Below are positions 13,193 to 33,904 of a stretch of DNA of 42,241 nt, one piece after another (within the stretch, counting starts at the first letter, position 1; every line of letters starts with the position of its first letter). The stretch comes from a bacterium TMED46 (GTDB lineage Bacteria; Fidelibacterota; Marinisomatia; Marinisomatales; UBA1611). The translations under genes were made by a program, and so were the position numbers. Below the pieces are notes generated by a model. The model did not search any database and was not told the origin of the DNA. It saw only the letters and a program-made list of their open reading frames with translations. The DNA lies in the NCBI GenBank assembly GCA_002167345.2, contig NHCZ02000012.1:34532-76772 (forward strand), written 5' to 3'.

Positions 13193-14067
13193 TAGTAAAG
13201 TATAAAACGGGTGAGGACTACTTTATCCCTATCTAAAACTTCTAGGTCGTACCGGTGTTTTCCCCTGGGAACATTGAACTCACAAGACCTCCACTTTCCG
13301 GGGACTTTATCCATTCTTCCTTTGATCTGTGATGCGGAGGACCTTTCTGTACTAAAATAATAAGTTCCAATGATCTTATTCCCTTCACTTACTCTTAAAC
13401 GATATGCTTCTTCCTGTCCCATTTGCTCAGAAAACTGAAGACGGGTCATAATGCGCATTGTCTTTTTACCTTTTGCTTCAATTTGCAAGGGAAGTTCAGG
13501 ACTGCATTCAAAATAGTTAATTATTTTTCCATCGGTCTCCAATTGGACTGCACTCTTATGAACCATGGGCATTAAGACCTTTTTACTCTTTCCAAGGGAT
13601 TCAAATTCTTTGGTAATAAGACGAATTAGAACAGGATATTTTTGATCTTCATCTGGTAAAAGCTCAATAGTATGTGACCCTTTGTCTAGATTTATAAAAT
13701 AATTACCTGAATATGTATAATTATGCTTAGGATGTTGCACGGACCTGATCGATCTTTGCACTTTGTAGCGATGTTTAACATTGACAGTATCTTTGCCATC
13801 TAAAACAATAGAGTATTGAAATGAATGACTTTTTTTCTTCTTTTTTATAACTGGATATCTTGAAATAAACTCTATTCTACTAGGACCTTCGATAGCATAA
13901 TGAATACTTTCTCTTTTGAGCGGATAATAGAGCCTCCTTTTGTCATTGATTATCAAAATCTCTTTCTCATCGCCACTTTTTGATGGTTTAATTAATTTGG
14001 CCTCTAAAGGCAAAAAAGAAAAGATTAGAAAAAGTACTAGTGTTCTATAATAAGCTATCTGGTTCAT
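13192..14067 (-). CDS. secreted protein of unknown function linked to the pgs genes
   Basis: I do not recognise this 291-residue protein. It has a signal peptide (residues ~1-23, LIFSFLPLEAK) and then an all-beta-looking mature region with a Lys-rich patch near residues 75-80. A repeated theme of strand pairs, such as NYFINLDKGSHTIELLPD and FNVPRGKHRYDLEVLDRD, resembles carbohydrate-binding or Ig-like sandwich modules. No cysteine pattern or catalytic motif stands out. It overlaps the end of pgsW by 23 bases and the start of the barrel gene by one base, so it is almost certainly co-translated with both. A periplasmic role between the polyglutamate synthase and the outer-membrane barrel is plausible but not shown. 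Confidence 0.62.
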   Translation of the reverse strand: MNQIAYYRTLVLFLIFSFLPLEAKLIKPSKSGDEKEILIINDKRRLYYPLKRESIHYAIEGPSRIEFISRYPVIKKKKKSHSFQYSIVLDGKDTVNVKHRYKVQRSIRSVQHPKHNYTYSGNYFINLDKGSHTIELLPDEDQKYPVLIRLITKEFESLGKSKKVLMPMVHKSAVQLETDGKIINYFECSPELPLQIEAKGKKTMRIMTRLQFSEQMGQEEAYRLRVSEGNKIIGTYYFSTERSSASQIKGRMDKVPGKWRSCEFNVPRGKHRYDLEVLDRDKVVLTRFILY

Positions 14068-15211
14068 GCTGTAATAAATGTTCTTTTATTTTTCGTTTAC
14101 TATGTAATCCAACAGAAAAAACGCTGCCGCTAACCACCAAGAGGCACAGAGCGGCAACCAATATATTATAACGCTCATCTGCATATAAACTACCATTGCC
14201 TATTTCAGGTATCGGAATCGGCGCAAATGGCATCTTAAACTGCTCTGTGAGCGGTCGAATATTAAGGATATGTAGACCCGGAACATTAGAATTTAAAAAT
14301 TTAGATAATACCCCTTCAATTCCACCAGGTCGCCCAATATTTGAGATATCTGATCGGATAACCACACCAGGCGGTAATAGCCTTAAATTAAAACTAGTAC
14401 CTAGGCTGGCCACACCTCCACCAACATTAATGACCGCTTTATAATTACTTATTTTTTTAATACCTGAAAAAATATCCATCCTGTGTTCAATATTTTCTGC
14501 TAATCTATCCTTGCGTATAATTGGTATATCATGATATTGGATGTTATCTGTTATGATATTTCTCCCTGCAGGAGATAATAACCTACCCATGTCATTGCGA
14601 CCACCGATTGATGCGGCTATACTCTTTGTAGGTATAAGATCATTTTCAAAGAGAATTTTCTCCATATCAAGCCAAGTAAAATCAACTTGATTTGCTCCCC
14701 ATTGAGACGCGCCAACACTTGTAATAGATATGGGATGAATACCTAAGGCCTTACAAGCAGTTAAAACCGCTATATTCGCTCCCGGCATTGACCCAGTCAT
14801 CAGGAGGGCGACCGTATCTTTTGAGCTCAAATTTAGCTGGACCATAAGATCAACAATCCCAGCTGAAAGATTAGGGTCCAATGTGGTTAATTTAGAGTCG
14901 AGATCACCTTCATCTGTTGTGATCAAACTAAAAGGACTTCCAACCAATCCTGTTTCATTTGGATCGTTCTCAATATCAATGAATACACCTGACTCCATCC
15001 TACTGCCTTTAAGTACATCCATTCCTTTTTTCATAAGCTCTGCTGCTTGAACCTTTTGTTCATAAGAGCCAGAAACATTGATGGTCCGAGTATTGATCGC
15101 TATAAGAAAGCATACCAGAGATAGTAATGATAAAAATACCAAAGTAGAGGTTTTCTGGATAGCAGGTATGAAGGGTTGCTTTTTATAATTATTCAAAAAG
15201 TACTCCACCAA
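14045..15211 (-). CDS. pgsW: poly-gamma-glutamate system protein PgsW
   Basis: The 388-residue product matches the poly-gamma-glutamate system protein family that accompanies PgsB and PgsC in some bacteria. An N-terminal membrane segment (~24-40) precedes a large Gly-rich domain with LLMTGSMPGANIAVLTA, SITSVGASQWGANQ, SIGGRNDMG, INVGGGVASLG and IGRPGGIEGVLS. A second membrane segment follows near residues 350-370, with a short basic tail. The layout suggests a periplasmic domain held between two membrane spans, though topology is inferred. The start overlaps pgsC by 23 bases. The biochemical role of this family is not established. In this locus it takes the place where pgsA/capA is usually expected, but it is not a PgsA homologue. 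Confidence 0.82.
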   Translation of the reverse strand: MVEYFLNNYKKQPFIPAIQKTSTLVFLSLLSLVCFLIAINTRTINVSGSYEQKVQAAELMKKGMDVLKGSRMESGVFIDIENDPNETGLVGSPFSLITTDEGDLDSKLTTLDPNLSAGIVDLMVQLNLSSKDTVALLMTGSMPGANIAVLTACKALGIHPISITSVGASQWGANQVDFTWLDMEKILFENDLIPTKSIAASIGGRNDMGRLLSPAGRNIITDNIQYHDIPIIRKDRLAENIEHRMDIFSGIKKISNYKAVINVGGGVASLGTSFNLRLLPPGVVIRSDISNIGRPGGIEGVLSKFLNSNVPGLHILNIRPLTEQFKMPFAPIPIPEIGNGSLYADERYNILVAALCLLVVSGSVFSVGLHSKRKIKEHLLQHEPDSLL

Positions 15212-15632
15212 AAAGCAATATAACAGATAGTTTCACCATGACAGCAGTTAGCAAAACAACAGAAAGTGTTCGAATGATTCCTTGGCGGTCCATCCAATTT
15301 GCTATCAAACCTGGGATAATATTACCAATAACAGCTGCAGAACCAATATCTTGTGGAAGATAAATAAAATTTCTTGATATATACCCAAAAAAGAATCCAA
15401 GTATAAGGGCTAAAACAATACGGCGTTTGCCATAGAGAAACATCACTTTCCCCATACCCTGAATAATTGCCCAAACCAATATGGCTACAAAGAAGGTTAC
15501 CAATACTTGCAGGGGTTCATGCAAATATAAAGCAATATACCCAGGAACAATAATTCCACCAGCAGTAACACCTAGTGTTTCTGATAGTACTAAACTAAGA
15601 AATATCCCTAAACCGATGCTTATTTCAACCAT
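15189..15632 (-). CDS. pgsC: poly-gamma-glutamate synthase subunit PgsC (CapC)
   Basis: This 147-residue integral membrane protein has about four hydrophobic spans. Its N-terminal region reads SETLGVTAGGIIVPGYIALY, a hallmark of PgsC/CapC, and the length (~150 residues) is normal for the family. PgsC pairs with the PgsB ligase in the inner membrane to form the polyglutamate synthase and probably helps pass the growing chain across the membrane. The gene overlaps pgsB by 8 bases and pgsW by 23, so the three are tightly coupled. Confidence 0.9.
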   Translation of the reverse strand: MVEISIGLGIFLSLVLSETLGVTAGGIIVPGYIALYLHEPLQVLVTFFVAILVWAIIQGMGKVMFLYGKRRIVLALILGFFFGYISRNFIYLPQDIGSAAVIGNIIPGLIANWMDRQGIIRTLSVVLLTAVMVKLSVILLFGGVLFE

Positions 15633-16806
15633 GGTGTTTGTACTCTGATATCAATTGTAATATATCTTGTCCAGCGCCAACCTGATTACCAATAGCATAT
15701 ATCAATGTATCATTTGGCAGTTTTTCTAGAAGATCCACCACCTCATTCAAGGGCTCATCTAGTCCGACAACTTTTACATCTGTTTTCGGCGAATGATGGC
15801 TTAATCCTTTTATAGCAGAGGTAACTTTATCTCCTCTTATAATGAAGTGATCAGGTTTTATTTCTTCTAGAGTTAGTTCTACCATTTGGCGTGTTCTTAA
15901 TGGTCTGTCCTCTCTTGAATTAAAAAACACACAAGTGCCGCCAACAGCTGGATAACGATCGATCACAAATTTCCATATCTGCAGAGTCGATACTGGGTCA
16001 TTTGCTGCCATACCATTTATAAACTGCAGCCTTTTCTCCTTCATATCTAGGTTCCATGCCACAAGTGCGCCAAGATCAGGCTGTACTTTATGCATCCCAG
16101 CTAGAGCGATGTCTCGACTTATACCTGCCTCTTTACATACATCAAGCGCAACTGCAACATTCGAAGGATGCTCCATGTAGGTGAATTGGTCTAACTCATC
16201 ATTAGTAACTGACTGATCATCAGAAAAAATAAGATCTGAACGATTTGAGCTTGCAACTTCCTTTAAGATATCTTTTTTCTGGTCTTCTCCAGTGATAAGG
16301 ATAGCATCAACGGGAATGGTATTGCATAAGGAATAAGCCACGTCATCTTCTGTTGGCCCCATTTCATCTAGATGATCTGGACGTACATTAGTAATGACAC
16401 CAATATGCGATCTAACCATTTGATGCTCAGCTATCCATTGATATTGAGGTTGTACTGCCATGCATTCCATGACCACTGCCTGTGGTCTTTCTGAGGCAAA
16501 ATAACTAAGTAATCTTACCTGTTCGCCTATAGATGGCAAACGCAAACGATGTATGATACGGTCTTTGCCTTCTGAATCGATCACCCTTGGAGCGGTTCCC
16601 GTAGTTTTCGCAAAGGTTCTAAGTCCTCCTTCTCGCAGTCCAGCTGCGACAAGCCGAGTTACGCTAGACTTTCCCCGAGTGCCATTGACATGTATCCTTA
16701 ACGGTATAGCATCCAGAGAGCGAAGATGGTATTGAAATTCAAGAATGCCAGCAATACATAGTGCAAAAGCAAGTGCGCCAAGCACAATAAGAGGAATAGT
16801 TGCCAT
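15625..16806 (-). CDS. pgsB: poly-gamma-glutamate synthase PgsB (CapB), Mur-ligase family
   Basis: The 393-residue product is an ATP-dependent amide ligase of the Mur-ligase superfamily. After an N-terminal membrane segment (~3-23) it carries the P-loop NGTRGKSS (41-48), TTGTAPR (68-74), VVMECMAVQP with Glu114, VITNVRPDHLDEMG (137-150), INGMAANDP and FFNSREDRPLRTRQM. All of these are typical of PgsB/CapB, and the length matches the ~395 residues of known members. It is expected to polymerise glutamate through gamma-carboxyl linkages on the cytoplasmic face, working with PgsC. There is no clear Shine-Dalgarno before this ATG. The start is 20 bases after the upstream C25 gene. The actual monomer (L- or D-Glu, or a related amino acid) cannot be told from the sequence. 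Confidence 0.93.
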   Translation of the reverse strand: MATIPLIVLGALAFALCIAGILEFQYHLRSLDAIPLRIHVNGTRGKSSVTRLVAAGLREGGLRTFAKTTGTAPRVIDSEGKDRIIHRLRLPSIGEQVRLLSYFASERPQAVVMECMAVQPQYQWIAEHQMVRSHIGVITNVRPDHLDEMGPTEDDVAYSLCNTIPVDAILITGEDQKKDILKEVASSNRSDLIFSDDQSVTNDELDQFTYMEHPSNVAVALDVCKEAGISRDIALAGMHKVQPDLGALVAWNLDMKEKRLQFINGMAANDPVSTLQIWKFVIDRYPAVGGTCVFFNSREDRPLRTRQMVELTLEEIKPDHFIIRGDKVTSAIKGLSHHSPKTDVKVVGLDEPLNEVVDLLEKLPNDTLIYAIGNQVGAGQDILQLISEYKHHG

Positions 16807-16826: not shown

Positions 16827-19800
16827 TTATTCTTGGTTGTACCCCATGATCATCTGGATCAGAGATATAAGATCCATTACATTGACCATGCCGTCTCCAT
16901 TAATATCTCCAAAGAAAGGATTTACCTGTCCCTCATAACCAAGGTTAAAATCTACCAATAACATCAGATCATAGATGTCTATTACCTCATCATAGTTTAG
17001 ATCACCCTCTAATCTCATGTCACTTCCACGAGTAGTGATCAATACAGCTGTTTCATCTGATAATTCCATTGCAGCGGGGTGATAGGTATCATTGAATGTA
17101 TACTGAAGACCTCTTGACATAGTATGATCTTCTATTCCGACTGAACAATAAAGTCCGTGGGTCTGATCCCAACTATAGGAACCGTAAGATGTATTATTGA
17201 ATTCTTTATACTGTAGAAGAATCTCACCATCTCCAGTAGGGGTGATATAATAGCTAGGGTCATATAAAACCGCTTGGAATGTTTCAAGTGAGTTATTCTG
17301 ATATGTTCTAGCCTCTGACCATTCTACGTAGAACTTCTTTTCTATCTGGTCATGCCAAGTGTAGACCCTTCCACCATTTGATAATTTAAGGTCATCCCAG
17401 AAAACAGCTATCATTTTAGCTGGACCACCCACCCCAGGAATTTGATAGTTTCGAAATGATTCAAGGTCTGTATCACCCATAGCGATCCAGCCATTTGAAC
17501 AGATACTGATCTCATCATATTCCTGACCATAAAATTTAAATGTAAAAGGCAAACTGATCGTCTGAACATCATCCTGATTATTACCATTATCTGTAAGCGA
17601 ATTTAGATGAGTTCCTGGACCTCCTTCTCTGGCATCGATCTCAACCCAATCGTACGTTGGTGCTAAAACATAGTTAATATCTTCATTATCGTATATGTAG
17701 TAGCCATAGGAGTCTGGCCCGACAGGGTCATTAACAGTAGGCTGTCCTATTTGCACCTCAATAATAGAATTAGTTGAATAGCCATCTTCAGTTTCAAGAC
17801 TAACGATCAAATGTGCGATAGCTCCAGGAATTGTCACATCAAGAGCGCTTACTTCAAAATAGTCATTACCATTAAATGACGACCCACCAGAATTAACTGA
17901 GGTCCATGTCCCACTATCATCTATTATTTCTATAAAAGGTGATGCACACGTTATGGTGCCGGATATCGACACTGCATGGGTTGAACCAGTATTATTCAAT
18001 TCGATCTTGATATATGAAGATTCTCCAGGCGTTAGAACATCACTAGCTGAACCAAGTACATCAACATCACTTGCACTTATTGAATTGCCATGTGCAACTA
18101 TATCGAGTACTCCATTGAAATTTCCACCCTCATTATCTACAAAGTTGACAATGAGATCAAGATTACTACCTTGCGCTAAACCATCATTCAGTACTACTAG
18201 ATACGGTAAACTGCCATTAATAGTTTCACCAGATGCAATATCACCAAATTCTACCATATTTGCTGTAGAATCAATGAGAACATTGCCACTGGTTGATACT
18301 AAATAGCCAATTACATTAGTTGCATCCACAGAGCCATAATTCTTAGCACTTACATAGATTTCTATTGCTTCACCACCATTTGCCACAAAGTCACCATTAC
18401 CACTTGACTGACCTGAACCATCATCATAAAGTGTGTAGGGTGAAGAACCAACTCCGATGGCTACGCCTGGGTCATGTATCTGGAATGAGTTTTGATATGG
18501 ATAATGATTTTTCTTAGTAACAGTGACGAGCACCTCTCCAGTCTCAAATGATGTGACTGGTAACCTAACAAATCCTTGGGCATCGGTATATCCAGACTCA
18601 AATATCTCGTCTTCCATAAGAATTGTCACCCATGCACCTTCGACAGGACCATTATCTTTATCTACTGTAATGTCTATAAAGTTTGAACCGGTAGTAACCA
18701 TGTATGGGTGCGTGACCGTTGTCATTTCGGGATAATCGGTCCACATCTGAAGTGAGGACTCTCCCATAAGATTATTCCAATGCGTAAAGATATGACAGTA
18801 ATTATTCGGATTTGATGGATAGTTCGTATAGAGCATCATTTTACCATACATCAGTGCCGCACCGGGTGTATCAAGGCCTTTTAACAATGCACCATAATAA
18901 AAACCCATATCAACAATATTATTGAACATTGTGTGCGTGCCAAGTGTTGCAGTTCCAATACAGACAACAGAACCTTTTGGATTTGAGGATGTTCCTGCTC
19001 TAAGGAAAGATTCACTGAGGGCCTCATTGTTAGAAGCAAATGAACCAGTTCCACATGTGATCACAGTAGCAACTGGTAACATAAAACCATTGGACGTACT
19101 ATTCACGTCACTAGATCCAAAACCGCTCACACCGTAATATCCCCTATAATTGAAAAGAGAGACACCTTCATTGAGTCCTGATGTCATCTGGCTTGGGAAA
19201 GATCCACTGTAAACTGTATTGACTTCTTCGTAACCAGCAAGGTCTAACATCTCATGTATATTCTCATTTGTAATAACACAAGAAATACCTGAAGTATTTG
19301 GATCGCCTACTAGACAGGCACGTTGAAACCAATTTTCATTCATGTAGGGGTTTGATTCATAATTCAGCGTCTTACTGATGATCGTATTTAAATGTGAGCT
19401 TGAAGAAAAACTCAGCCTTCCAATGAAAACCTCAGGATATACATCCCCACCTTCTAGGGTAGTATATGGCTGATCACCCTCGCCATTGTAGCCACTATAT
19501 GACTCCGTCCATGTGGGTATATCATAGCTACCAGTAGCATCGCCAACAATATTTACATGCACAGGTGGGTTGTCCCATGTCTCGTACGCTTCTTCGATAT
19601 AATCTTTTAGATTGTTCCTATTATTTACAACGTTTGAAGAAGAGACATATTGCACGTCATACCCTACTCTTTTTTTCCAATCCATGAGTTGTTCTACTGT
19701 ACCTAGGAGATTACCAATATTGTTCGGTAAAACGTAGAGTATGCAAGGACGTTGATAGTCCACTTCATCCCTGGACATAGAACTATAGTTGATTATTAAG

Positions 19801-20414
19801 GATTCATATAAAGCTTCAAATTCGCGCGATCTTTTCTGCGGTATAAATGGCATATCGACAGTACCTGACTCTAACAACTCTACGTCAGCACTGTGAATGA
19901 TCATCAATTCTTTTGTCACAGGATTATACTGAAAGGGTGTCAATGAAACTTGAACCATTACAATATCTCTAAATACCATAGGTTCGGAAACTGTAGCGAT
20001 CTGATCTGGGAAGGTCATATCATGATTATAAACAGTGCCCTTGGTAAAATTCCCAGTTAGCTCAGGTTCCCAGCTTTCAAACGGCAGGACCTCCACATTA
20101 GGGATGGTTTCAGACTCTTGGATAGAAACCTCGACCGTATAAGATTTACCAGGCTCTGTGGCATAAAAGGTAGAGACTGTTGGAATATCAGGCTGACCAG
20201 ACTCTACTTTTGAACCTGCGCCAGATATTTCTGGTTTAATGTAGAAAGTACCATTTTTATCCACCTCAGTTAATTCAAACCCTGGAATAGAAAAACTGAG
20301 TTGTTTTTCCATATTGGTAATATCAAAACCGCTGAAGCTTACGTCAGAGCTTTCTGATGCAACTAAAATGTTGAAAACTGCAATAATCCATAACCGACCG
20401 CATATTTTTGTCAT
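16827..20414 (-). CDS. C25 (gingipain)-family secreted protein with C-terminal dockerin, catalytic His absent
   Basis: The 1195-residue product has a signal peptide (1-20), a gingipain-type propeptide-like region (~25-220), a C25 core (~225-570), Ig-like and CARDB-like beta domains (~600-890), a NIDO-like domain (~895-1130), and a dockerin pair in the last ~59 residues (GDLNYDEVIDIYDLMLLVD and GDINGDGMVNVMDLISLI). The core shows VNIVGDATGSYDIPT, VFIGRLSF and the nucleophile region VITCGTGSFA with Cys454. The His of the usual GHG is missing, as NYRGYYGVSGF places Tyr at 426 and 427. Unlike the other big secreted proteins here, it ends in dockerin-like calcium-binding repeats instead of a T9SS sorting domain. 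GAGG 5 bases before the ATG is its ribosome site. It lies between pilD and pgsB, 11 bases after pilD. Confidence 0.87.
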   Translation of the reverse strand: MTKICGRLWIIAVFNILVASESSDVSFSGFDITNMEKQLSFSIPGFELTEVDKNGTFYIKPEISGAGSKVESGQPDIPTVSTFYATEPGKSYTVEVSIQESETIPNVEVLPFESWEPELTGNFTKGTVYNHDMTFPDQIATVSEPMVFRDIVMVQVSLTPFQYNPVTKELMIIHSADVELLESGTVDMPFIPQKRSREFEALYESLIINYSSMSRDEVDYQRPCILYVLPNNIGNLLGTVEQLMDWKKRVGYDVQYVSSSNVVNNRNNLKDYIEEAYETWDNPPVHVNIVGDATGSYDIPTWTESYSGYNGEGDQPYTTLEGGDVYPEVFIGRLSFSSSSHLNTIISKTLNYESNPYMNENWFQRACLVGDPNTSGISCVITNENIHEMLDLAGYEEVNTVYSGSFPSQMTSGLNEGVSLFNYRGYYGVSGFGSSDVNSTSNGFMLPVATVITCGTGSFASNNEALSESFLRAGTSSNPKGSVVCIGTATLGTHTMFNNIVDMGFYYGALLKGLDTPGAALMYGKMMLYTNYPSNPNNYCHIFTHWNNLMGESSLQMWTDYPEMTTVTHPYMVTTGSNFIDITVDKDNGPVEGAWVTILMEDEIFESGYTDAQGFVRLPVTSFETGEVLVTVTKKNHYPYQNSFQIHDPGVAIGVGSSPYTLYDDGSGQSSGNGDFVANGGEAIEIYVSAKNYGSVDATNVIGYLVSTSGNVLIDSTANMVEFGDIASGETINGSLPYLVVLNDGLAQGSNLDLIVNFVDNEGGNFNGVLDIVAHGNSISASDVDVLGSASDVLTPGESSYIKIELNNTGSTHAVSISGTITCASPFIEIIDDSGTWTSVNSGGSSFNGNDYFEVSALDVTIPGAIAHLIVSLETEDGYSTNSIIEVQIGQPTVNDPVGPDSYGYYIYDNEDINYVLAPTYDWVEIDAREGGPGTHLNSLTDNGNNQDDVQTISLPFTFKFYGQEYDEISICSNGWIAMGDTDLESFRNYQIPGVGGPAKMIAVFWDDLKLSNGGRVYTWHDQIEKKFYVEWSEARTYQNNSLETFQAVLYDPSYYITPTGDGEILLQYKEFNNTSYGSYSWDQTHGLYCSVGIEDHTMSRGLQYTFNDTYHPAAMELSDETAVLITTRGSDMRLEGDLNYDEVIDIYDLMLLVDFNLGYEGQVNPFFGDINGDGMVNVMDLISLIQMIMGYNQE

Positions 20415-20425
20415 GTCTGCCTCTA

Positions 20426-21067
20426 TTATAATATCAATAAATGAAAGAATTCCGGATAGTAGAAACTACCAACATAAGTACCCGTTCCTGCAATAGATAA
20501 AAACGGGGCCATTGGCATCGCCCTGTCTTTATCAAAATCTGTTACTAAAGAAACGCCTAACCAGGTTAATAAACTCAAAACCGATGCACTAAATAAGGTT
20601 ATGGCCATTCTGGTAGGCCCTAACCATGCCCCTAAAACTATACCCATTTGTATGTCACCAAACCCCATCCCCTGACGTTTTGTGACCGACCATAATGCTC
20701 CCATAATGATTAGTGGTATGACTGCTCCAACAAATATACCCCAAAGTGCAGAACTTAGAAATATCACATCCAGTATTATGGCAATGAATGCAATGGCTAG
20801 GCCCATAAGAATGAAAACGACAGGAATCTGGAATGTTCTTAGGTCAACAAATGCAATTCCAGCCAATACAGTCACAATGAATGAAAATATAAAAGCCTCA
20901 TTCATGGGAAGGCTATAGAATGCCCATGTGAATGAAACCATGCCAATGAATTCCATACTCGGATCTTTTATGTTCATTTCATATCCATCTATAGAAAGCC
21001 AGTTGACGATATGCTTTATTCCATGTCCGGACATCAAACCACCAATGATTGGTAAGACCTGACCCAT
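20426..21067 (-). CDS. pilD: prepilin peptidase (A24 aspartic protease), lacking the methyltransferase loop
   Basis: This polytopic membrane protein carries both A24 active-site aspartates: Asp in FVDLRTFQIP and the GxGD motif in GMGFGDIQMG. It therefore cleaves prepilin leader peptides at the inner membrane. The ATG at 21067 (start of MGQVLPIIGG) lies 1 base after the pilC stop and gives 213 residues. A longer reading from 21127 would overlap pilC by 59 bases with a non-family N-terminus. The usual ~100-residue N-terminal part with GSFLNVV and two CxxC pairs, which methylates the processed pilin, is largely absent: after MSGHGIKHIVNWL the sequence jumps to a DPSMEFIG segment. Pilin methylation may be missing or done by another enzyme. 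It serves the pilins encoded upstream. Confidence 0.85.
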   Translation of the reverse strand: MGQVLPIIGGLMSGHGIKHIVNWLSIDGYEMNIKDPSMEFIGMVSFTWAFYSLPMNEAFIFSFIVTVLAGIAFVDLRTFQIPVVFILMGLAIAFIAIILDVIFLSSALWGIFVGAVIPLIIMGALWSVTKRQGMGFGDIQMGIVLGAWLGPTRMAITLFSASVLSLLTWLGVSLVTDFDKDRAMPMAPFLSIAGTGTYVGSFYYPEFFHLLIL

Positions 21068-21068
21068 A

Positions 21069-22316
21069 TTATAATCCAGATTGCAGAGCCGACCCCAAAT
21101 GGAATACAGGCAGATATGTGAGTACAACCATTAAAGCTATGACTGCCCCTACCATTAGTATAAGTAAAGGCTCGATAAGGGTTGTCATTCTATCAACGAG
21201 TGCATCTACCTGTTTCTGGTAGTAGTCTGCAGCTCTATCCAGAAGGTCATCCAATTCTCCTGTATCTTCACCCGTGGATGCTAATTGTAGCAGTATAGAT
21301 GGGAATACCTCTGTCCTTCTAAGTGCCGTTGATATATTATATCCGTCCCTTATAAGATCGGATGCATCATCTATAGCTCTTTCATAGACTTTATTATCAA
21401 CTACTTTTCTTAGTAAAGCAGTGGTCTCAAGAACTGGAACGCCTGCACCAATGAGAATACCAAATGTCTTACAAAATTTATTCAATATAGATTGCTCAAT
21501 TAATGCACCAAAAACTGGGATCTTTAGTTTAATAGTATCTAGAGTGTAACCACCTCGCTGCGTCTTGGATATGAGCCAAATTATAGAAAAGACTGTAAAA
21601 ATTGAAAAAGCAAGAAAACCAATATTGTTACCAAACCAGGTACTAAAATCGATCATTTGCCGCGTAGCGGCAGGAAGCCCTGCTCCTAGTTGAGAATACA
21701 CCTGAGAAAATTTAGGTATGATCACCAAGAGCATTACCATCAGCATAGCAATGAGGAATAGGATCATGAAAATCGGGTAATTCATCGCTGACTTTACCTT
21801 TCTACGTGTATCATCCAAATTCTCAAGGTAAGAAGATAATTGCTCAAGGATCTCATTCAGGTTACCGCTCACTTCACCAGCCTTTACCATCGCAACAAAT
21901 AAAGTATTAAAAACACCTGGATGCCTTGATAAGGATTCTGAAAGGTTAAGACCCTTACGAATATTTTCACTGACAGTGTTCAATATCTTCTGAAATTTTC
22001 TATGTTTCTCTTCGACTCCTAGGCTTTGTATAGCACGCTCAAGTGTAAGGCCTGCAGAAAACATTGTAGCAAGCTGCCGGGTAAAAAATACAATATTAGA
22101 AAGTGGGATTCTATTCTTGGCTTTTTCTATTGATAATTGTATTTCATCAATAAATGGACCAAGAAAATCAAAGGTGTCATCTACTTCTTTAAGAGTAATG
22201 ACCATTTGACCATTAGCGGATAATTTCTGCACCGCAGTATCAAGGGAGTCTGCACGGATCTCTCCTTCTTTTCTCTTTCCCTCAGGATCCTTGGTCAAAT
22301 AATTAAATACTGCCAC
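21069..22316 (-). CDS. pilC: type IV pilus inner-membrane platform protein PilC (GspF family)
   Basis: The 415-residue product has the standard layout of the family. A cytoplasmic N-terminus starts with FNYLTKDPEGKRKEGEI, followed by two repeated T2SSF domains, each with FxRQLATMFSAGL-type or FGILIGAGVP-type cores. There are three membrane spans near residues 170-195, 220-245 and 380-405. GEVSGNLNEILEQLSSYLE and GEDTGELDDLLDRAADYY are the paired GE-x-G motifs of GspF/PilC. It forms the platform linking the PilB and PilT motors to the growing pilus. Its start overlaps the last base of pilB, and pilD follows 1 base after its stop. Confidence 0.95.
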   Translation of the reverse strand: MAVFNYLTKDPEGKRKEGEIRADSLDTAVQKLSANGQMVITLKEVDDTFDFLGPFIDEIQLSIEKAKNRIPLSNIVFFTRQLATMFSAGLTLERAIQSLGVEEKHRKFQKILNTVSENIRKGLNLSESLSRHPGVFNTLFVAMVKAGEVSGNLNEILEQLSSYLENLDDTRRKVKSAMNYPIFMILFLIAMLMVMLLVIIPKFSQVYSQLGAGLPAATRQMIDFSTWFGNNIGFLAFSIFTVFSIIWLISKTQRGGYTLDTIKLKIPVFGALIEQSILNKFCKTFGILIGAGVPVLETTALLRKVVDNKVYERAIDDASDLIRDGYNISTALRRTEVFPSILLQLASTGEDTGELDDLLDRAADYYQKQVDALVDRMTTLIEPLLILMVGAVIALMVVLTYLPVFHLGSALQSGL

Positions 22317-24037
22317 TAGAGATCCTCAACAGTCGATCTTAACACTTCTTCGATAGAGGTTGTACCATCGAGAACTCTTTCAAGACCAGCCTCTCTCAAT
22401 GTGACCATCTCATTATCTAGCGCAGCCTGACGTATTTCATCCTCATTAGCATTGTCAAATACAAGCTTACGCAATTCACGTGCCATAGGTATCATCTCAA
22501 AAATGGCTAGCCTTCCCTTATATCCTGTATTACGACACTCAGCACACCCCTTAGCTTTGTAAAGAGCTTTAGGGACACTGCTCGGATCTAATCCAACTAG
22601 ACCTAATTCTTGTTTACTTGGGACATATTCCTCCTTACAGTTATTGCAAAGTCTTCGAACTAGACGTTGTGCCATAACAAGGTTGAGACATGAACCCACT
22701 AAAAACGGAGCTATACCTATATCTAATAACCTAGTAATAGTTCCCGGAGCATCGTTTGCATGCACAGTAGAAAATACCAAGTGCCCAGTCAATGCAAATT
22801 TCACAGCAATGTCTGCAGTCTCACCATCCCTTATCTCACCAATGAGCAAGACATCTGGATCTTGACGCAGTATAGAACGCAGGGTCGAACCAAAGGTGAG
22901 ACCTATATCCTCAAACACCTGTACCTGATTCACACCATCTAATTGATACTCGACAGGATCTTCTACTGTTGTAATATTGGTTTTTTCACTCTTGATCTCT
23001 TTTAAAGCTGCGTAGAGAGATGTTGATTTACCTGATCCGGTAGGTCCAGACACCACGACCATACCATATGGTTGATTGATGACTTTTTTAAAAGTGTTAA
23101 GATTTCGTTTAGGAAAACCAAGAGATGTTAGATTAAAATCGAATCCTGTTTTATCCAACAGCCTCATTACAACTTTTTCACCATAGACTGTAGGTAAAAT
23201 TGATACACGAATATCTATATCTTTACCAGGCGCTTTAACAGAAAATCTTCCATCCTGTGGTAATCTTTTTTCAGCAATATTCAAGTTTGATAATATCTTT
23301 ATTCTTGTTACCAGGCCACTTAAGGATGCAATAGGCGGTGTCATGATTGTTTGTAATACACCATCAATTCTAATTCTTATGTAGACCTGATTTTCCATTG
23401 GCTCAATGTGAATATCTGTAGCACGCTCTTTGATCGATTCCTGAAAAATAAGATTGACCAGCTTAACAATGGGTGCATCTTCCTCAGATGCCTTGTCTGG
23501 TGATAGGTCAACCTCTTCCTGTGAGCCCTCATCACCTGATACAACGGTGATGCTATCAATGGTCTGTTCAACCTCAGCGGTTTTTTGTATCTCACCGTAA
23601 ACTTTATCTAATGCTTTTTCAAGTAAGCTGGGACCTGCAACTAAAATATCAGGGTTTAAACTCGTTAGTCTCTTGATTGAGTCAATAGCGACAACATCCT
23701 CTGGGTCTTCCATTGCAACCACGATGGTAGTATCATTACTGCTAACACCTAGAACTCTATTCTCGCGGGCAAAATCCTCAGGTATAAGCGCAGCCACTTC
23801 AGAGTCTGCTTCAAGAAGAATAAAATTATCTGCTTTTTTATATCCTAGTTGCTGACCATAGGCCGTTGCAAAATCATCTTCTTCCAACAAACCCATTTCG
23901 ATCAATGTTGTACCGATCTTTTCATTGGTAGTTTTTTGTTGTACGAGAGCTTCATTAATCCCGCTCTCTGTTGCTTTACCATTATTTACAAGGATCTCAC
24001 CAAGTTTTGAAAATTGTGGATTAAAATCTGCGCTCAT
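22316..24037 (-). CDS. pilB: type IV pilus extension ATPase PilB (GspE family)
   Basis: The 573-residue product has an N-terminal MshEN/GspE-N domain (~8-150), an acidic linker and a GspE AAA-type ATPase. Walker A GPTGSGKS is at 331-338, the Asp box VEDPVEY near 358-364, Walker B VLLIGEIRD near 396-403, the His box GHLVFSTVHAND at 418-429, and a zinc site with CNNC (464-467) and CAEC (498-501). These features separate it from PilT, which lacks the zinc site and MshEN domain. It powers pilus assembly from the cytoplasmic face of PilC. AGGG lies 7 bases before the ATG, and the stop overlaps the pilC start. The preceding gene is an Ig-like lipoprotein, an unusual neighbour for pilB. Confidence 0.96.
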   Translation of the reverse strand: MSADFNPQFSKLGEILVNNGKATESGINEALVQQKTTNEKIGTTLIEMGLLEEDDFATAYGQQLGYKKADNFILLEADSEVAALIPEDFARENRVLGVSSNDTTIVVAMEDPEDVVAIDSIKRLTSLNPDILVAGPSLLEKALDKVYGEIQKTAEVEQTIDSITVVSGDEGSQEEVDLSPDKASEEDAPIVKLVNLIFQESIKERATDIHIEPMENQVYIRIRIDGVLQTIMTPPIASLSGLVTRIKILSNLNIAEKRLPQDGRFSVKAPGKDIDIRVSILPTVYGEKVVMRLLDKTGFDFNLTSLGFPKRNLNTFKKVINQPYGMVVVSGPTGSGKSTSLYAALKEIKSEKTNITTVEDPVEYQLDGVNQVQVFEDIGLTFGSTLRSILRQDPDVLLIGEIRDGETADIAVKFALTGHLVFSTVHANDAPGTITRLLDIGIAPFLVGSCLNLVMAQRLVRRLCNNCKEEYVPSKQELGLVGLDPSSVPKALYKAKGCAECRNTGYKGRLAIFEMIPMARELRKLVFDNANEDEIRQAALDNEMVTLREAGLERVLDGTTSIEEVLRSTVEDL

Positions 24038-24071: not shown

Positions 24072-26327
24072 TTAAGGACACTCATCAGATGATGGAGATC
24101 TGACCAGAAGAATATCTATTGGATCGCTTGTGGTGATCTCTGGAATCATAAGGGTTGCAGTAAGACTTGAGGTAAAATCATCCCATGTACAAACTTGTGG
24201 GTTTTGGGTATCATCTATATTTGCCAATGTGCATAATGCACGATCATATTGAACTAGGATCCTTGCATAACCGTCCTCATCTGTTCGAACTACAGGCTCA
24301 CAATTGATCATTGAATATCCATCCCAGAATCCGTTCGCCTCTCCTTCATCAAAAGTGTTTTCTATGCCATCCTGTCCAAAATCATCAAATGGCTCTGAAA
24401 CCTCTGAGGTATCGTAGATACCATTCCCTGTTGTATCAAAAGAATCATGTCTTTGATTAAATGTACCCATGTCCAAGGTCTCAGGATCATCATCAGCTCC
24501 ATAATCACGCCAGCTGAAGCACCCATCTCCTACTCCTGCACCAAGAACGCCCTCATCTGTATAGGCCTCATACCCTAATTCGTTCCAGCCGAGCACTCCA
24601 GTCCCACCAAAAGCAACGGGTGCATCGACTACAGGGTTACCATAAAAATCAATGACCAGTGCACTGACCTGCAGTTCAGCAAGGTCAGTACCTTCAAGAG
24701 TAAAGTCAAAGTATGTGGCTTCTGCTAATAAGGTGACCTGACCAGGTAAAAAGAATAAAGTAGCATCACCCTGGTCTTCATTAATATAGGATGCCACAGA
24801 ATCACCATCAGTACCAAATGTAAGTGCCCGCACCTGACCTATGTCTCCGATAGCGTCTGTGGAGTAAACAATATTTGATCTCGCAACCCCAGAGGTAGCT
24901 TGGCCACTCAATATGCCTTCATTATTCGTATAACTAACCCCTTCTACAAATGCATCAATTAGCGTATCAGGCGGTAAGGGAGTAATGGACCAATATACAT
25001 AGGTAGAGTCTTCAACTGGGTTGTACCATCTATCATAAACAATAGCAGCACACTCTGTCTGATAAAATCCACCACCGATAGCTTCTGTACTGTTTGGATC
25101 ATACTCTGCTTCAATATGGTATGGCGCTCCTGATGAAATGATAACAGGAACTGTTATACTTTCTAAGGCATCATTTAGAGTATCGCATATGGATGTTTCT
25201 ACAGTATTTGCTGTCGCAATGATCCTTACAGGACCTGGCTCCGTACCACTATTCAGCGAAACAGTCGCCACACCATTGACCGTCTCTACATTGACTGAGG
25301 TCTGATCTGGACTATTCAAATATGTTCCTTGTAGAATGGGTTCTAGCCTGAAATTAACTGTTACACCTGATGTCAAAAGATTTCCATTACTATCATATAC
25401 CTCTGCCTTGATATCTGTGGATTCAATTCCACCTCCATCCTTTACAACTATTTCACTTGGGTTGGAAGCTGGTATTTCAATATAGGCGCAAGATCCAACT
25501 GCGCTTTCTGTACCGATAACGATCTGTTTTGAAACCGTAACTGTGTCTCCTATAGCCGGGTGATAGAAAGAGGTATTTACCAGCCCTGGTCCTACATTTT
25601 CACTGAAACTATAAGATTCGAAGGTTGTATTTATCATGCCTGTAGGATCGGTAAAACATGTATCTCCGCAAATAATACTACCATTAGCTGATTCTATATT
25701 AAGAAGGACCCCATCTAGGTCATCGCCGTGTGCATTTTGAAGGAGTACTTCATAGGGACTGCTTCCACCAAGATCTATCTGGGCATCTGCAGTAATGTTC
25801 ATTGTATAAGGCCAGACCTGCTCTTTTTGACTAAAAACTGAGAATTCTACATTATCAATGATATCACTTGTGTATTTTACCGTTATGATAGCACCCGAGG
25901 ATGCGGTGGACTCGATCTTTTCGGCACCATTACTCGGTGTAAAACGAGCAAATGCATACCCATTTCCACCAAGTTCAGGGAAACCAAATTCCTTAAAATT
26001 CGGCACATACTTTGTTGATGGATCACTGGTGTCGAAAGCGCCATCAATATCTGAAGAGAATTGTAGTGATTTTCCATTAGCTCCAACGCCCTCTCCATCC
26101 AATAGTCTGGCTATAACGATAACTGAAGTTTTTGCCTCAGCATCTGATAAAACCTCACCGACTATGATAGGATTAGATGTCTCGCCATGTACGAAAACAT
26201 GGGCCAAGGATAGCGAACCTGTCTCAACTGCAGTTTCTACTTCTTCAGGTAAACGATCGTCACATGATAAAGTAAATATCGATATGAAAAGGAATGATAG
26301 AAAACTAATAATTTTAGAAAAATTCAT
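24072..26327 (-). CDS. Ig-like (Big-type) repeat lipoprotein within the pilus operon
   Basis: The 751-residue product starts with a lipoprotein-like signal (IFTLSC, Cys22 as probable lipidated residue). It continues as three or four Ig-like domains of the bacterial Big/invasin kind: AKTSVIVIARLLDGEGV with FARFTPSNGAEKI, IKAEVYDSNGNLLTSGVTVNF with GVATVSLNSG, and LQVSALVIDFYGNPVVDAPV with YARILVQYD. Near residues 615-660 an Asp-rich segment (DTTGNGIYDTSE, DDFGQDGIENTFDEGE) could bind calcium. It sits between pilQ and pilB, with its own Shine-Dalgarno inside the last codons of pilQ, so it is probably made with the pilus machine. An outer-membrane lipoprotein decorating the PilQ pore or acting as an adhesin is my inference; I know no named homologue. 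Confidence 0.75.
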   Translation of the reverse strand: MNFSKIISFLSFLFISIFTLSCDDRLPEEVETAVETGSLSLAHVFVHGETSNPIIVGEVLSDAEAKTSVIVIARLLDGEGVGANGKSLQFSSDIDGAFDTSDPSTKYVPNFKEFGFPELGGNGYAFARFTPSNGAEKIESTASSGAIITVKYTSDIIDNVEFSVFSQKEQVWPYTMNITADAQIDLGGSSPYEVLLQNAHGDDLDGVLLNIESANGSIICGDTCFTDPTGMINTTFESYSFSENVGPGLVNTSFYHPAIGDTVTVSKQIVIGTESAVGSCAYIEIPASNPSEIVVKDGGGIESTDIKAEVYDSNGNLLTSGVTVNFRLEPILQGTYLNSPDQTSVNVETVNGVATVSLNSGTEPGPVRIIATANTVETSICDTLNDALESITVPVIISSGAPYHIEAEYDPNSTEAIGGGFYQTECAAIVYDRWYNPVEDSTYVYWSITPLPPDTLIDAFVEGVSYTNNEGILSGQATSGVARSNIVYSTDAIGDIGQVRALTFGTDGDSVASYINEDQGDATLFFLPGQVTLLAEATYFDFTLEGTDLAELQVSALVIDFYGNPVVDAPVAFGGTGVLGWNELGYEAYTDEGVLGAGVGDGCFSWRDYGADDDPETLDMGTFNQRHDSFDTTGNGIYDTSEVSEPFDDFGQDGIENTFDEGEANGFWDGYSMINCEPVVRTDEDGYARILVQYDRALCTLANIDDTQNPQVCTWDDFTSSLTATLMIPEITTSDPIDILLVRSPSSDECP

Positions 26328-26328
26328 A

Positions 26329-27798
26329 CTATTCTCCTTTACCTTGTTGTATTTCAGGACTGTCTATTTCTTCATCTCCACTAACATCCTGACCAACGCT
26401 AGTAGCTTCATTTTTAGGAGCTACAGATCTATTAACATAGTTCTCGTATTCAGCCACCTCTTGAGATTTGACTATTCCAGTATATGCATCTTCAATGATC
26501 TTTGGAGTAATTTGAATGACCAGATCTGTTTTGCGTTCTATAACACCTCGCGATGTAAATAATTTGCTACCAATAATTGGAATCTTATGCAGTATCGGCA
26601 CCTTGTAGGTCGTTTGTTTTTTATCATTACTTAAGAGCCCACCTATGACAATGGATTGCCCATCTTTTACCCTTATAGTAGTGGATGATGTTCTACTCTT
26701 AACTCTTGGTATATTAGCATCTGGGCCAATGAATTCAAATATAGTTGAGACCTCAGGTTCAACCTTGACAGTTATATAACCATCGGTATTTACGGTTGGT
26801 AAAATATTAAGTTTTATACCAACTTCCTCTTTCTGAACCTGCACCTGACCACCTACGCCTCCAGAACTCAGAATATATGGCACGATATCGACAAGCTTGA
26901 TATTAGCCTCTCTTCCATTAATGGTGGTTAGCCTTGAATCAGCTAGAACTTCTGCTTTGTTATTTCTAAGAAGTAGATCTAGGGTGAGGTCAAATGCTGT
27001 CAACTGTCTACTAAAATACCTGGGTATTATAGCGGTCTCATCTTTTTTGCCACTTAATCTATTGAATCCCATTGTAGCAGGTTTTTGCCCTATTGTCTGA
27101 TCATCAGGCACCACTGAGCCTCCCCCTTCCTGTAAGGGGACCCCATTTTCTGCTAGAATAGTGCTATAGCTTGAAATTTTGGACCAATCTAGACCTAACT
27201 GTTCCTCAACGTCTGCAGCAACCTCGATCAGTCTTGTTTCAAGCATGATCTGTATCGCTGGAACGTCAATACTCTCAACCACCTTGATAATCTCTGCTAT
27301 TTTCTTTGGAGAGGCGTTCACTAGAAGCTTATTACCTGGAATATCAACCTGGACCTGCTCTGAAATATCCTGCAAAAGATTCTTTACATCTGCAGCAGCA
27401 GCATACTTTAGCGTGACCACATATGAAGTAACACCAACTTCTTCTTTTAATTTTTTAGGATCTGCTATAAGGAATGAGTTTCCAACAACCTCATAGCTCA
27501 GCCCTACAGCCCTGACCACTAGATTAATTGCCTGCTCAATGGGGACCTCATCCAAATGAACAGAGACCTTGTCCTGCTTGTTCACATTAGGATCAGTGAC
27601 GATGTTATATCCACTTTCTTTAGCGAGGATAGCAAGAATACTCGGCAGGAATGCATCCTCTGCATGAATCGTGATCAAAGTATTATCCTCATTTGATTCA
27701 GTTGTACCTGGCTGACCATAAATTGGCTGTATCGAAATGACCATAATGACACAATAGATCATAAAGTTCATAAATTTCATATTACGCTTTTCCTTCAT
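26329..27798 (-). CDS. pilQ: type IV pilus secretin PilQ
   Basis: This is the outer-membrane pore for the pilus. After a signal peptide ending IQPIYGQPG it has an STN/N0-type domain (ITIHAEDAFLPSILAILA to SFLIADP), one secretin-N (N1/KH-like) domain (YVVTLKYAAAADVKNLLQDI to SIDVPA), and the C-terminal secretin domain. That domain contains IMLETRLIEV, LTTINGREANIKL, VGIKLNILPTVN and VKDGQSIVIGGLLSN. AMIN domains common in proteobacterial PilQ are absent. I chose the ATG at 27798, after the upstream PilP-like stop. The ATG at 27780 is also possible and has AAGGA upstream, and a longer reading from 27861 overlaps pilP. The C-terminal ~40 residues are acidic. It completes the pilM-N-O-P-Q order. 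Confidence 0.94.
   Translation of the reverse strand: MKEKRNMKFMNFMIYCVIMVISIQPIYGQPGTTESNEDNTLITIHAEDAFLPSILAILAKESGYNIVTDPNVNKQDKVSVHLDEVPIEQAINLVVRAVGLSYEVVGNSFLIADPKKLKEEVGVTSYVVTLKYAAAADVKNLLQDISEQVQVDIPGNKLLVNASPKKIAEIIKVVESIDVPAIQIMLETRLIEVAADVEEQLGLDWSKISSYSTILAENGVPLQEGGGSVVPDDQTIGQKPATMGFNRLSGKKDETAIIPRYFSRQLTAFDLTLDLLLRNNKAEVLADSRLTTINGREANIKLVDIVPYILSSGGVGGQVQVQKEEVGIKLNILPTVNTDGYITVKVEPEVSTIFEFIGPDANIPRVKSRTSSTTIRVKDGQSIVIGGLLSNDKKQTTYKVPILHKIPIIGSKLFTSRGVIERKTDLVIQITPKIIEDAYTGIVKSQEVAEYENYVNRSVAPKNEATSVGQDVSGDEEIDSPEIQQGKGE
26334..26340 (-). promoter_or_regulatory. ribosome binding site of the Ig-like lipoprotein gene inside pilQ
   Basis: On the minus strand AAAGGAG lies 6 bases before the ATG at 26327, formed by the last sense codons of pilQ. 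This supports the chosen start and coupled translation of pilQ and the lipoprotein gene. Confidence 0.65.
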
Positions 27799-27814
27799 AA
27801 TTTTTTCCAATATC

Positions 27815-28315
27815 CTATGTTGATGGTTCATAACCTGGCGCAGGGTATGATTTCTTTCCACTGTTTGTTTTTATAATGACCTTTGTACCATCAATCTGTT
27901 CAACAGTACCAATATTAGGTATAGTGTCTCCTACCCCAACAGTAAATGCCTTACCTCTATAATCGATCTGTGCCTGAAAATGGTCTTCTCTTTGATACAC
28001 AAAAGCAACTCTTACCGCATTTCTGTTACGCTTCACTCGCCTACCAGATCCATCTGCAAGAGAAAGAACATTCGTGAGGAGCATTGGAGTATTATTGATT
28101 TTAAACTCAAATTCACTACGGTCTTCAAGTCTTTCCTCAAGATAAGAGATAATATTCTCTAGCTCTTTATCAGTTCCGAATTGAAGGTCCTCTGCAGCTT
28201 GTTTTAAACGATCATATTTTTTATTCATTGGAAAAAGTTTAAAACTAGTAGCGACCAAACTTAAGATCGTAAACCCTACAATAAGATTCCAAATAGTAAC
28301 CGACCTATCACTCAT
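27815..28315 (-). CDS. pilP: PilP-like pilus alignment protein (GspC/HR-type domain)
   Basis: The 166-residue product has a single N-terminal membrane span (~8-28), a charged helical stretch (residues 30-70), and a C-terminal beta domain with YRGKAFTVGVGDTIPNIGTV and VIIKTNSGKKSY. That is the homology-region fold of PilP/GspC, which contacts the secretin. Classic PilP is a lipoprotein; here the anchor is a membrane span, as in GspC. The assignment rests on both this domain and its place between pilO and pilQ. It overlaps pilO by 4 bases. Confidence 0.78.
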   Translation of the reverse strand: MSDRSVTIWNLIVGFTILSLVATSFKLFPMNKKYDRLKQAAEDLQFGTDKELENIISYLEERLEDRSEFEFKINNTPMLLTNVLSLADGSGRRVKRNRNAVRVAFVYQREDHFQAQIDYRGKAFTVGVGDTIPNIGTVEQIDGTKVIIKTNSGKKSYPAPGYEPST

Positions 28316-28887
28316 GATACAACCTTGCTCTTTGATTTTACCAGTGTGATTGTCGATAGACTCACTACAAACTCCTGGTATATTAATTTTTCTTCATCGG
28401 TGTTCGCCTTGATCCTTTCAATTCCATTTTTGACCTCAAACTCATCAATGGTAATTAACCTTGGTGAGCGCTCTAACTCTGAAAGGAATTTCCCAAATTG
28501 GTCATAAGAACACTCGAGGGTGACAATATAAGGCGCCTTGAAGTAAGTAATTTTATCGATGCGAGGTTTAGGCTTGATGCCCAATAATTTTATATCTAAC
28601 TCTTCTAGCACATCTGTTAAATTATTTAAAAATGGTAAACTTGCATCATCTGCAAGAGAATCTGCTTTTGAAAGCGCTAGGTTTTCCTGAAACAATGTAA
28701 ACACCCTATCCAACTGACTAGCCAGGATCTGAGCGCTTATCAGATTTTCATTAAGCTCTTGCTGCTCCTCCTCAAGGACCCTTATCTCAAAAGGTTTATC
28801 ACCAATGAGAATTGACGCAGTCAACCAGTATGAGATTGTTAATAAGATCATTGATCCAAATAGAATAATATTTCTTTTTTCAGCCAT
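28312..28887 (-). CDS. pilO: type IV pilus inner-membrane alignment protein PilO
   Basis: The 191-residue product has one N-terminal membrane span (~9-29), a coiled-coil stretch (RVLEEEQQELNENLISAQILASQ region, ~36-75), and a ferredoxin-like C-terminal domain. The segments FLNNLTDVLEELDIKLLGIKP and YDQFGKFLSELERSPRLITIDEF are characteristic of PilO. It pairs with PilN in the periplasm to link PilM to PilP and PilQ. Position and size fit the family. It starts 9 bases after pilN and overlaps the pilP-like gene by 4 bases. Confidence 0.9.
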   Translation of the reverse strand: MAEKRNIILFGSMILLTISYWLTASILIGDKPFEIRVLEEEQQELNENLISAQILASQLDRVFTLFQENLALSKADSLADDASLPFLNNLTDVLEELDIKLLGIKPKPRIDKITYFKAPYIVTLECSYDQFGKFLSELERSPRLITIDEFEVKNGIERIKANTDEEKLIYQEFVVSLSTITLVKSKSKVVS

Positions 28888-28896
28888 AGTTAGTAA

Positions 28897-29490
28897 TTAG
28901 GAAAAATTCTTTTTCCCACCCTTTTTCGAGCTAGCTTCTATTTCAAATCTTACAATATCTTGCCCTCGAACACTTACTTTACTGTGACCTACATACTTTA
29001 TCTTACTAAAGTTGATCGAGAATTCTTTATTATTACGCAAGGTTTGTACATATTCATCGATGATCTCGAAGTCTTTTCGATCTTCAAACGTTAGTGCAAT
29101 TCCTCGTATTATAAGCTTTTGACGTTTAAATCTTAAACCAGTGATCGCGATATCATCAGGAGTCAAAGCTCCCATTTTCTCCAAGTTCTTGGCCCATAGA
29201 AAGCGATCTTGTTCTAAGTCTGCGAATGAAAGGATATCATCCTTTGATAGATTCTTGCCCTGTGATTGGAGTTTATTGATCTCATCCTTTAGGCGCGAGA
29301 TCTCTTTTTGCTTTTTATCAATTATTCCGTCGTAACCAGAACTGATCATCCATACCCTAACATTTACGCCCAGCAACAAGATAATAAGAACACCAAATAC
29401 GCCCCAACGCACTTGCTCACGTACCCTTGCCTGGCGAGTTTCTGCACTTTCTGCTTTATTTAGGTTTATAACTATATATTGTTTATCCAA
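28897..29490 (-). CDS. pilN: type IV pilus assembly protein PilN
   Basis: The 197-residue product has the cytoplasmic N-terminal motif VINLNKAE, the conserved INLN-type peptide by which PilN docks into PilM. A membrane span (~31-52), a coiled coil (IDKKQKEISRLKDEINKLQS) and a periplasmic ferredoxin-like domain (ITGLRFKRQKLIIRGIA) follow. It connects the cytoplasmic PilM ring to PilO and PilP. Its start overlaps the end of pilM by 8 bases, consistent with stoichiometric, coupled translation. Confidence 0.92.
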   Translation of the reverse strand: MDKQYIVINLNKAESAETRQARVREQVRWGVFGVLIILLLGVNVRVWMISSGYDGIIDKKQKEISRLKDEINKLQSQGKNLSKDDILSFADLEQDRFLWAKNLEKMGALTPDDIAITGLRFKRQKLIIRGIALTFEDRKDFEIIDEYVQTLRNNKEFSINFSKIKYVGHSKVSVRGQDIVRFEIEASSKKGGKKNFS

Positions 29491-33431: not shown

Positions 33432-33904
33432 AATTCGAACTTGGTCATGATAGTCGAAAGTCGCCTTTCATAACCCGTGTCTCCCGCATATCTTCCGGTT
33501 GGTGAGGTAAATCTATCACCCCATTTTATCCAACACTCTAGCTCATACCGGGTCATATCTGTAGTCCCATAGTCATTGAAGTTATTGAGCCTTCTAAAGT
33601 CATAGTACAATCGTGCCTCGATAGAATTCTTTTGTCCTAAACCACCAACTAAAAATATCTCATCGCCATCTGGATCTCCTGCAAGCTCATATGGCGATAG
33701 TTTCCCATCAGCGATGCGTCCTTTCCAATATTCCATATAATTAAGCAGTTCCTCTGTTGCTCTTTCTTTTATCTCAAGAGAATGTAGCTCGCCTCTTGCA
33801 TGTACAACACCCATCATAAGACCTATACAGGCAATCGATATAATAACTGTAGCTGTCATCACCTCGATAAACCCAATACCTGAACTAGATTTTTTTAAGG
33901 TCAT
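33428..33904 (-). CDS. PilV-like minor prepilin
   Basis: The 158-residue product has a short prepilin leader (KKSSSG|IGFIEV, Glu at mature position 5) and a hydrophobic helix with VIISIACIGLMMGV. A short globular part follows. The pattern and size suit PilV/PilI-type minor pilins. It lies between pilT and the PilW-like gene, overlapping each by 4 bases. The assignment to minor pilins is firm, but the specific subtype is inferred. Confidence 0.82.
   Translation of the reverse strand: MTLKKSSSGIGFIEVMTATVIISIACIGLMMGVVHARGELHSLEIKERATEELLNYMEYWKGRIADGKLSPYELAGDPDGDEIFLVGGLGQKNSIEARLYYDFRRLNNFNDYGTTDMTRYELECWIKWGDRFTSPTGRYAGDTGYERRLSTIMTKFEL

Follow-up and report, generated by a model that had tools for sequence, protein, structure and literature searches.

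A prepilin peptidase gene without the N-methyltransferase loop in a type IVa-like pilus operon of uncultured ocean bacteria

The pilus operon and its short peptidase gene

The window, as we call the whole stretch of 42,241 nucleotides analyzed here, contains a pilus operon of type IVa-like composition, with an N_methyl pilin, a PilT-like ATPase, three pilin-like proteins, PilM, PilN, PilO, a PilP-like protein, a secretin, a Big-1 domain protein, PilB, PilC, and an A24 prepilin peptidase. All genes placed by coordinates in this paragraph lie on the minus strand. The major pilin (positions 34960 to 35373; PF07963, N_methyl) carries the signature G/FTMIEIMVVVVIVAILA and is a presumed substrate of the peptidase. 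It is followed by an ATPase (33901 to 34953; PF00437) that we take to be PilT, the presumed retraction motor, and by three further presumed substrates, which are PilV-like (33428 to 33904), PilW-like (32796 to 33431), and PilX-like (30551 to 32803). These three proteins (30551 to 33904) have no Pfam matches, and their class III-like N-terminal leaders were read from the sequence. Next come pilM (29483 to 30541; PF11104), pilN (28897 to 29490; PF05137), and pilO (28312 to 28887; PF04350), the secretin gene pilQ (26329 to 27861; PF00263), the gene of the extension ATPase PilB (22316 to 24037; PF00437 and PF05157, MshEN), and, directly upstream of the A24 gene, that of the platform protein PilC (21069 to 22316; PF00482, T2SSF). 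Downstream lies a gingipain-like C25 protease gene (16827 to 20414; PF01364, PF08126, and PF00404), which is the next gene after the A24 gene in relatives too and marks the orthologous position. No Tad pilin or tad gene was recognized in the operon, which is not a tad locus with an Flp pilin.

The PilX-like protein is 750 amino acids long, and its leader (G/SAAPLALLFTL) is without Glu5, as in tip-capping subunits. The Big-1 domain protein (24072 to 26327), encoded between pilQ and pilB, is 38 to 95% identical within the window's family, a group of uncultured ocean bacteria designated f1, and its neighbors are far more conserved; a Big-1-like protein occupies the same position elsewhere in the phylum. 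Mur-ligase-like and CapC-like genes at 14045 to 16806, which we presume to be PgsB, PgsC, and PgsW, resemble a poly-gamma-glutamate capsule set, and this set follows the pilus operon and the C25 protease in most loci of f1 and of the related family f4 that are long enough.

The A24 gene (20426 to 21067, minus strand) was characterized by its open reading frame, its PF01478 match, a family alignment, and an AF2 model. It begins with an ATG at 21067, the pilC stop being at 21069, 1 base before the ATG, and encodes a prepilin peptidase of 213 amino acids without an N-methyltransferase (NMT) domain. In a Pfam profile search, the short protein matches Peptidase_A24 (PF01478) with 44 bits against a cut-off of 26.5. 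Both catalytic aspartates, which the preliminary description of this DNA had reported, are invariant in 24 of 24 aligned short forms of the family and in 18 of 18 long forms from related families: Asp 75 (codon at 20843 to 20845, minus strand) and Asp 138 (20654 to 20656, minus strand), the latter in a GMGFGD motif of the GxGD type. The protein thus belongs to the A24 peptidases both by a profile match above the cut-off and by its aspartates, the second of them in GxGD. The two CxxC pairs are missing, just as had been described. The CxxC...CxxC zinc site occurs in 0 of the 24 aligned short forms, and PF06750 (A24_N_bact) gives no match in the short protein even at E values up to 10 and is absent at every place examined that corresponds to this gene in f1. 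Of the marks of a bifunctional PilD, the protein therefore lacks PF06750 and the zinc site, although position and trees show it to descend from its own operon's PilD. An N terminus hidden upstream was considered and rejected: the reading frame could start as far out as a TTG at 21127, but the added stretch lies within pilC and contains neither a CxxC pair nor GSFLN.

A search of NCBIfam returned no family for the short form, for a long form from the same operon position, or for the second PilD of the genome. An AF2 model from 13 sequences reached a pLDDT of 87 and a pTM of 0.82, with only 2 of 5 models attaining 80. Sequence searches of solved structures returned nothing for the window protein, the second PilD, or the 13-row profile, and Foldseek found no match to the model in the PDB at E values up to 0.001. 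With VIA, the top match was archaeal FlaK (3s0x; Z of 9.7, rmsd of 3.2, 141 aligned residues), a Z that helical bundles reach by chance, followed by an unrelated chain with a Z of 6.6. The structure comparison agrees with a GxGD protease and is not decisive for a helical protein.

Extent of the loss and descent from a bifunctional PilD

A24 genes and their neighbors were collected from f1, from its order, and then from its class and phylum. We refer to the position of the window gene (PilC, A24, C25 protease, PgsB-like) as slot A and to the second PilD locus of the window genome as slot B. At slot A, all 25 rows of f1 have the short form and none has CxxC (24 genomes, one represented twice, besides the window's own), and four related families (f4, f7, f11, and f12) have a PilD of 250 to 256 amino acids with two CxxC pairs in 18 of 18 rows. 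In all, 25 of 33 f1 genomes carry the short form; 13 more loci with it are not independent of these genomes, as their contigs match in length contigs already in the collection. The order PilB-PilC-A24 recurs in f15, f16, f20, and f25, where two CxxC pairs were present in 9 of the 10 slot-A proteins read and none in that of G118.

Between the fixed alignment columns K18 and E39, 24 of 24 short forms have 22 residues and 18 of 18 long forms have 60. The cytoplasmic loop is shorter by exactly 38 residues, with one clean gap and no length scatter (junction at codons 18 to 39; 20951 to 21016, minus strand), and not by the roughly 100 residues that the preliminary description had supposed. Its remark that the segment DPSMEFIG resembles the loop's end was borne out, as E39 aligns with Glu in 18 of 18 bifunctional orthologues. 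It had also found the GSFLN region missing, and here the picture is mixed. The sequence is indeed gone, but the first hydrophobic segment (TM1) is kept, with the GSFLNVVIYR-type sequence replaced by a new conserved K-x-x-x-N-W-L-x-I motif in which the Asn of GSFLN has become Lys or Arg in 24 of 24 short forms and Tyr-Arg mainly Asn-Trp. The window genome is a draft in 56 contigs, and an assembly error or a frameshift could be suspected of having removed the loop. However, the same 38-residue junction is found in 24 of 24 aligned members and the end of pilC directly adjoins the start codon. Because the same form stands in 25 of the 33 family genomes, we exclude such an error and give it practically no weight.

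Trees were built from the columns common to both forms, by quick searches without bootstrap and with no TadV sequence among the rows. In the first tree, which omitted six rows (four because they were truncated or very short, one for its many N, and one as a near-duplicate), the 24 short forms group as a single clade (SH-aLRT 99) within a larger slot-A clade (96) that also takes in the PilDs of f4, f11, and f12, and the slot-B PilDs of f1 form a separate clade. In the second, which added 17 rows from the class and phylum and left out seven more, mostly long branches, the short forms are again one clade (SH-aLRT 100) inside slot A (95), and a single clade of all slot-A rows is not rejected (p-AU 0.29). 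The window protein is 34 to 42% identical to the slot-A PilDs of f4, f11, and f12 (31% to one divergent f11 row), 28% to those of f7, and 28% to the slot-B PilD of its own genome. We conclude that the short A24 protein is the orthologue of the bifunctional PilD that occupies the same position between pilB-pilC and the C25 protease, and that its history is most simply explained by a single deletion, in place, on the f1 stem.

Short A24 peptidases exist elsewhere. CpaA and FppA of the Tad (type IVc) pili are without a methylation domain, and archaea likewise have short A24 peptidases without NMT, among which FlaK and PibD have the GxGD protease fold. The same absence is described for TadV in passages of PMC10191384 and PMC4322843. 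This likeness, together with FlaK as the best solved match of the model, could speak for a TadV/CpaA-type or archaeal-type peptidase acquired by transfer, which we nevertheless consider very improbable. The short forms are nested inside the slot-A PilDs in both trees (in the absence of TadV rows), they keep the operon position, TM1, and residues from the end of the loop, and the operon has no recognized tad genes. In contrast to TadV, CpaA, and FppA, the window gene belongs to a pilBCMNOPQT operon whose pilin is of the N_methyl type, and it derives in place from PilD; in contrast to FlaK and PibD, its product is bacterial and is placed within PilD by the tree. The closest likeness is to PilD/GspO/XcpA (PF06750 plus PF01478), with orthology by position and tree and with the peptidase half, TM1, and the Glu of the loop end retained, the difference being that the zinc loop with its two CxxC pairs and the GSFLN motif are gone.

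Selection on the two remaining parts was compared by scaling distances to those of PilC from the same genomes (22 rows of f1 and 13 of f4) in three bins of PilC identity (0.9 to 0.985, 0.8 to 0.9, and 0.7 to 0.8). The ratios of the peptidase part to PilC were 4.5, 2.6, and 2.3 in f1 versus 3.4, 2.1, and 2.3 in f4, and those of the TM1 part were 10.9, 5.9, and 5.0 versus 4.0, 2.7, and 2.9, about twice as fast in f1. Four pairs of short forms gave dN/dS values of 0.15, 0.11, 0.08, and 0.20, and three pairs of long forms gave 0.22, 0.14, and 0.29; these values are rough because some synonymous distances are near or above 1. The peptidase half is under purifying selection, and the remnant of the NMT half has been freed and evolves fast. 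Orthology, a single origin, the exact extent of the loss, and an intact, constrained catalytic half all emerge from these computed comparisons.

A second PilD and the methylation of the pilins

Besides the short form, the window genome (96.8% complete) encodes one more A24 protein, the slot-B PilD, which has 266 amino acids, a PF06750 match of 108.7 bits, two CxxC pairs, and GSFLN. It begins a pilus or type II-like locus (L047:386-15003) that has PilB and PilC of its own, separated by a sigma-54 activator. The opposite strand nearby encodes an AAA_22 ATPase that matches PilM weakly, a PilO-DUF2914 protein, and a GspD-like secretin. The genome therefore has an NMT, and a second full-length PilD is present, which, had it been dedicated to this pilus, would have refuted the preliminary description by its own terms; as it adjoins its own PilB, PilC, and secretin, it belongs to another filament system and is not dedicated to the slot-A pilus. 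In G144, the slot-B PilD (G144:C41:2974-3522; L085) has an in-frame TGA in the alignment, which reflects either true decay or a sequencing error, and this genome was counted as having slot B.

Passages of PMC3584216 describe zinc, presumably held by the four cysteines, as needed for methylation but not for cleavage, from which it may be expected that a PilD without the loop cleaves and does not methylate. We think it probable that the product of the gene is a prepilin peptidase that only cleaves, and that it evolved in place from its operon's bifunctional PilD when a single in-frame deletion took out 38 residues. The deletion on the f1 stem would have removed the zinc-binding NMT loop and left TM1 and the GxGD aspartic protease; the short enzyme would cleave the leaders of its own operon's pilins at the cytoplasmic face of the membrane, and it would not methylate them. 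Our confidence extends to these three steps, and methylation in trans lies outside it. According to passages of PMC6668835, one PilD can serve more than one system, and the slot-B PilD would therefore be the natural methyl donor where it is present. There, the full-length enzyme would methylate the slot-A pilins in trans, and this redundancy would have allowed the loss, a further step that may prove wrong as readily as right, the redundancy argument resting on one event in f1. The short enzyme, judged from its sequence, most likely only cleaves, with methylation, if any, supplied in trans.

The earlier proposal that the pilins are either not N-methylated or methylated by another enzyme is partly supported: trans action of the slot-B PilD is the simplest account where that locus exists (17 of the 25 short-form genomes), and the other branch may hold in the remaining 8, in which no full-length PilD was found. 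Against these 8, completeness alone predicts 4.9 misses (P = 0.09); five of the 8 are at least 80% complete. Of all 33 f1 genomes, 11 yielded no PilD with an NMT, against 6.9 misses expected from completeness (P = 0.06), and among those at least 80% complete the misses number 6 of 20, against 2.6 expected (P = 0.03). A slot-B PilB of at least 60% identity is present in none of the 11. Truly NMT-free genomes in f1 are thus suggested only, and lineages without a second PilD would make unmethylated pili.

A variant that differs in the methylation step, in which the slot-A pilins of f1 are not N-methylated and the slot-B PilD serves its own system only, is possible, although we are inclined to doubt it. 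Methylation is dispensable for pilus assembly in Pseudomonas aeruginosa (passages of PMC3584216), and the genomes with the short form and no detected NMT fit such a variant. Against this stands the action of PilDs across systems elsewhere (PMC6668835, in part), and the number of genomes missing slot B is near the prediction from incompleteness (the P values of 0.09 for carriers and 0.03 for all 20 genomes at least 80% complete). In addition, F1 and the N_methyl signature persist in the major pilin, though possibly under other constraints. Its signature, G/FTMIEI, is the same in f1 as beside the bifunctional PilD in f4, and nothing in the substrate therefore signals a change.

One genome has lost the slot-A gene altogether. 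In G098 (92% complete), PilC and the C25 gene are about 60 bases apart with no A24 gene between them (L147:2349-2408; G098:C48), and the pilins and machinery are intact. No other A24 gene and no slot B were detected there, and one weak match (E of 0.02) proved on reading to contain nothing resembling PilD. The case speaks against our reading of the short enzyme: the pilins of G098 stay uncut unless the missing part of the genome contains a PilD. Unless a PilD lies in that part, G098 is predicted neither by cleavage-only action of the short enzyme nor by a reading in which this enzyme is redundant and decaying, with the slot-B PilD cleaving and methylating the pilins of both systems. Such decay would accord with the loss in G098, with the faster overall evolution of short than of long forms relative to PilC, and with the sharing of PilD between systems reported in parts of PMC6668835. 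We consider it unlikely, given that the catalytic residues are intact in 24 of 24 members, that dN/dS is 0.08 to 0.20 with nearly the same constraint on the peptidase half as in f4, and that the gene is kept in 25 of 33 genomes, 8 of which have no other PilD that we could find.

Methyltransferase domains across the phylum

Among 149 genomes sampled from the phylum, 85 have an A24 match. Where a single copy is detectable, its score against the NMT domain (PF06750) is 91 bits or higher in 49 of 53 genomes; the four that fall under 60 bits are G029, G088, G120, and G032, whose match runs into the end of a contig. A copy scoring 100 bits or more is present in 30 of the 32 multi-copy genomes, the other two being G025 and G101 (contig ends). 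In 27 of the 32, a canonical NMT copy is accompanied by another that scores under 70 bits or does not match the domain, a raw count uncorrected for kinship. Two canonical PilDs only are found in three of the 32, and redundancy therefore does not force loss. Five PF06750 matches of 20.8 to 24.4 bits were dropped, four in frames longer than 900 amino acids and one (G127) in a 101-amino-acid frame. A low NMT score is no proof of a dead methylase, because many of the low scorers in f20 and f25 keep the four cysteines; these copies (L174-L189, L191, and L192) have lost GSFLN and score 31 to 69 bits. In G015, slot B is degenerate and slot A is canonical.

Complete loss of the zinc ligands is found in three lineages, which are f1, G118 (slot A), and G090 (a third pilus locus, slot C). 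The slot-A protein of G118 (L193:3662-4420; G118:C19) has 252 amino acids, a loop of approximately normal length, and no CxxC, and a canonical slot-B copy is on another contig. The slot-C protein of G090 (L065:9633-10100; G090:C6) has 155 amino acids and lacks the whole N-terminal half; its orthologues in G048, G208, and G212, recognized by neighbors and identity, keep the NMT half with two CxxC pairs, and G090 also has a canonical slot-A PilD. Both resemble f1 as independent losses of zinc ligands beside a canonical PilD, and both differ from it in form, the loop length being kept and the cysteines lost in one and the entire half being absent in the other.

The counts across the phylum, uncorrected for kinship, fit the idea that one methylase per genome is enough. 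We suggest, tentatively, that one PilD per genome may act as the shared NMT for several type IV filament systems, while other PilDs lose the methylating half and stay private proteases. Under this reading, which we would not press, the loss may have recurred in three or more lineages, each of them having a canonical PilD at another place in the genome (for f1, 17 of the 25 carriers do). In the open-access literature searched, we found no description of a PilD in a type IVa-like operon that had lost its NMT loop in place, or of the asymmetric retention of one NMT per genome.

The short peptidase represents a natural, clean deletion of the methylating loop alone, in one operon of one family, and the bifunctional orthologues in related families serve as controls. 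Within the family, a second PilD is present in some lineages and perhaps absent from others. Two questions therefore become testable: whether a PilD methylates in trans the pilins of another system, and what an unmethylated type IVa-like pilus is able or unable to do.
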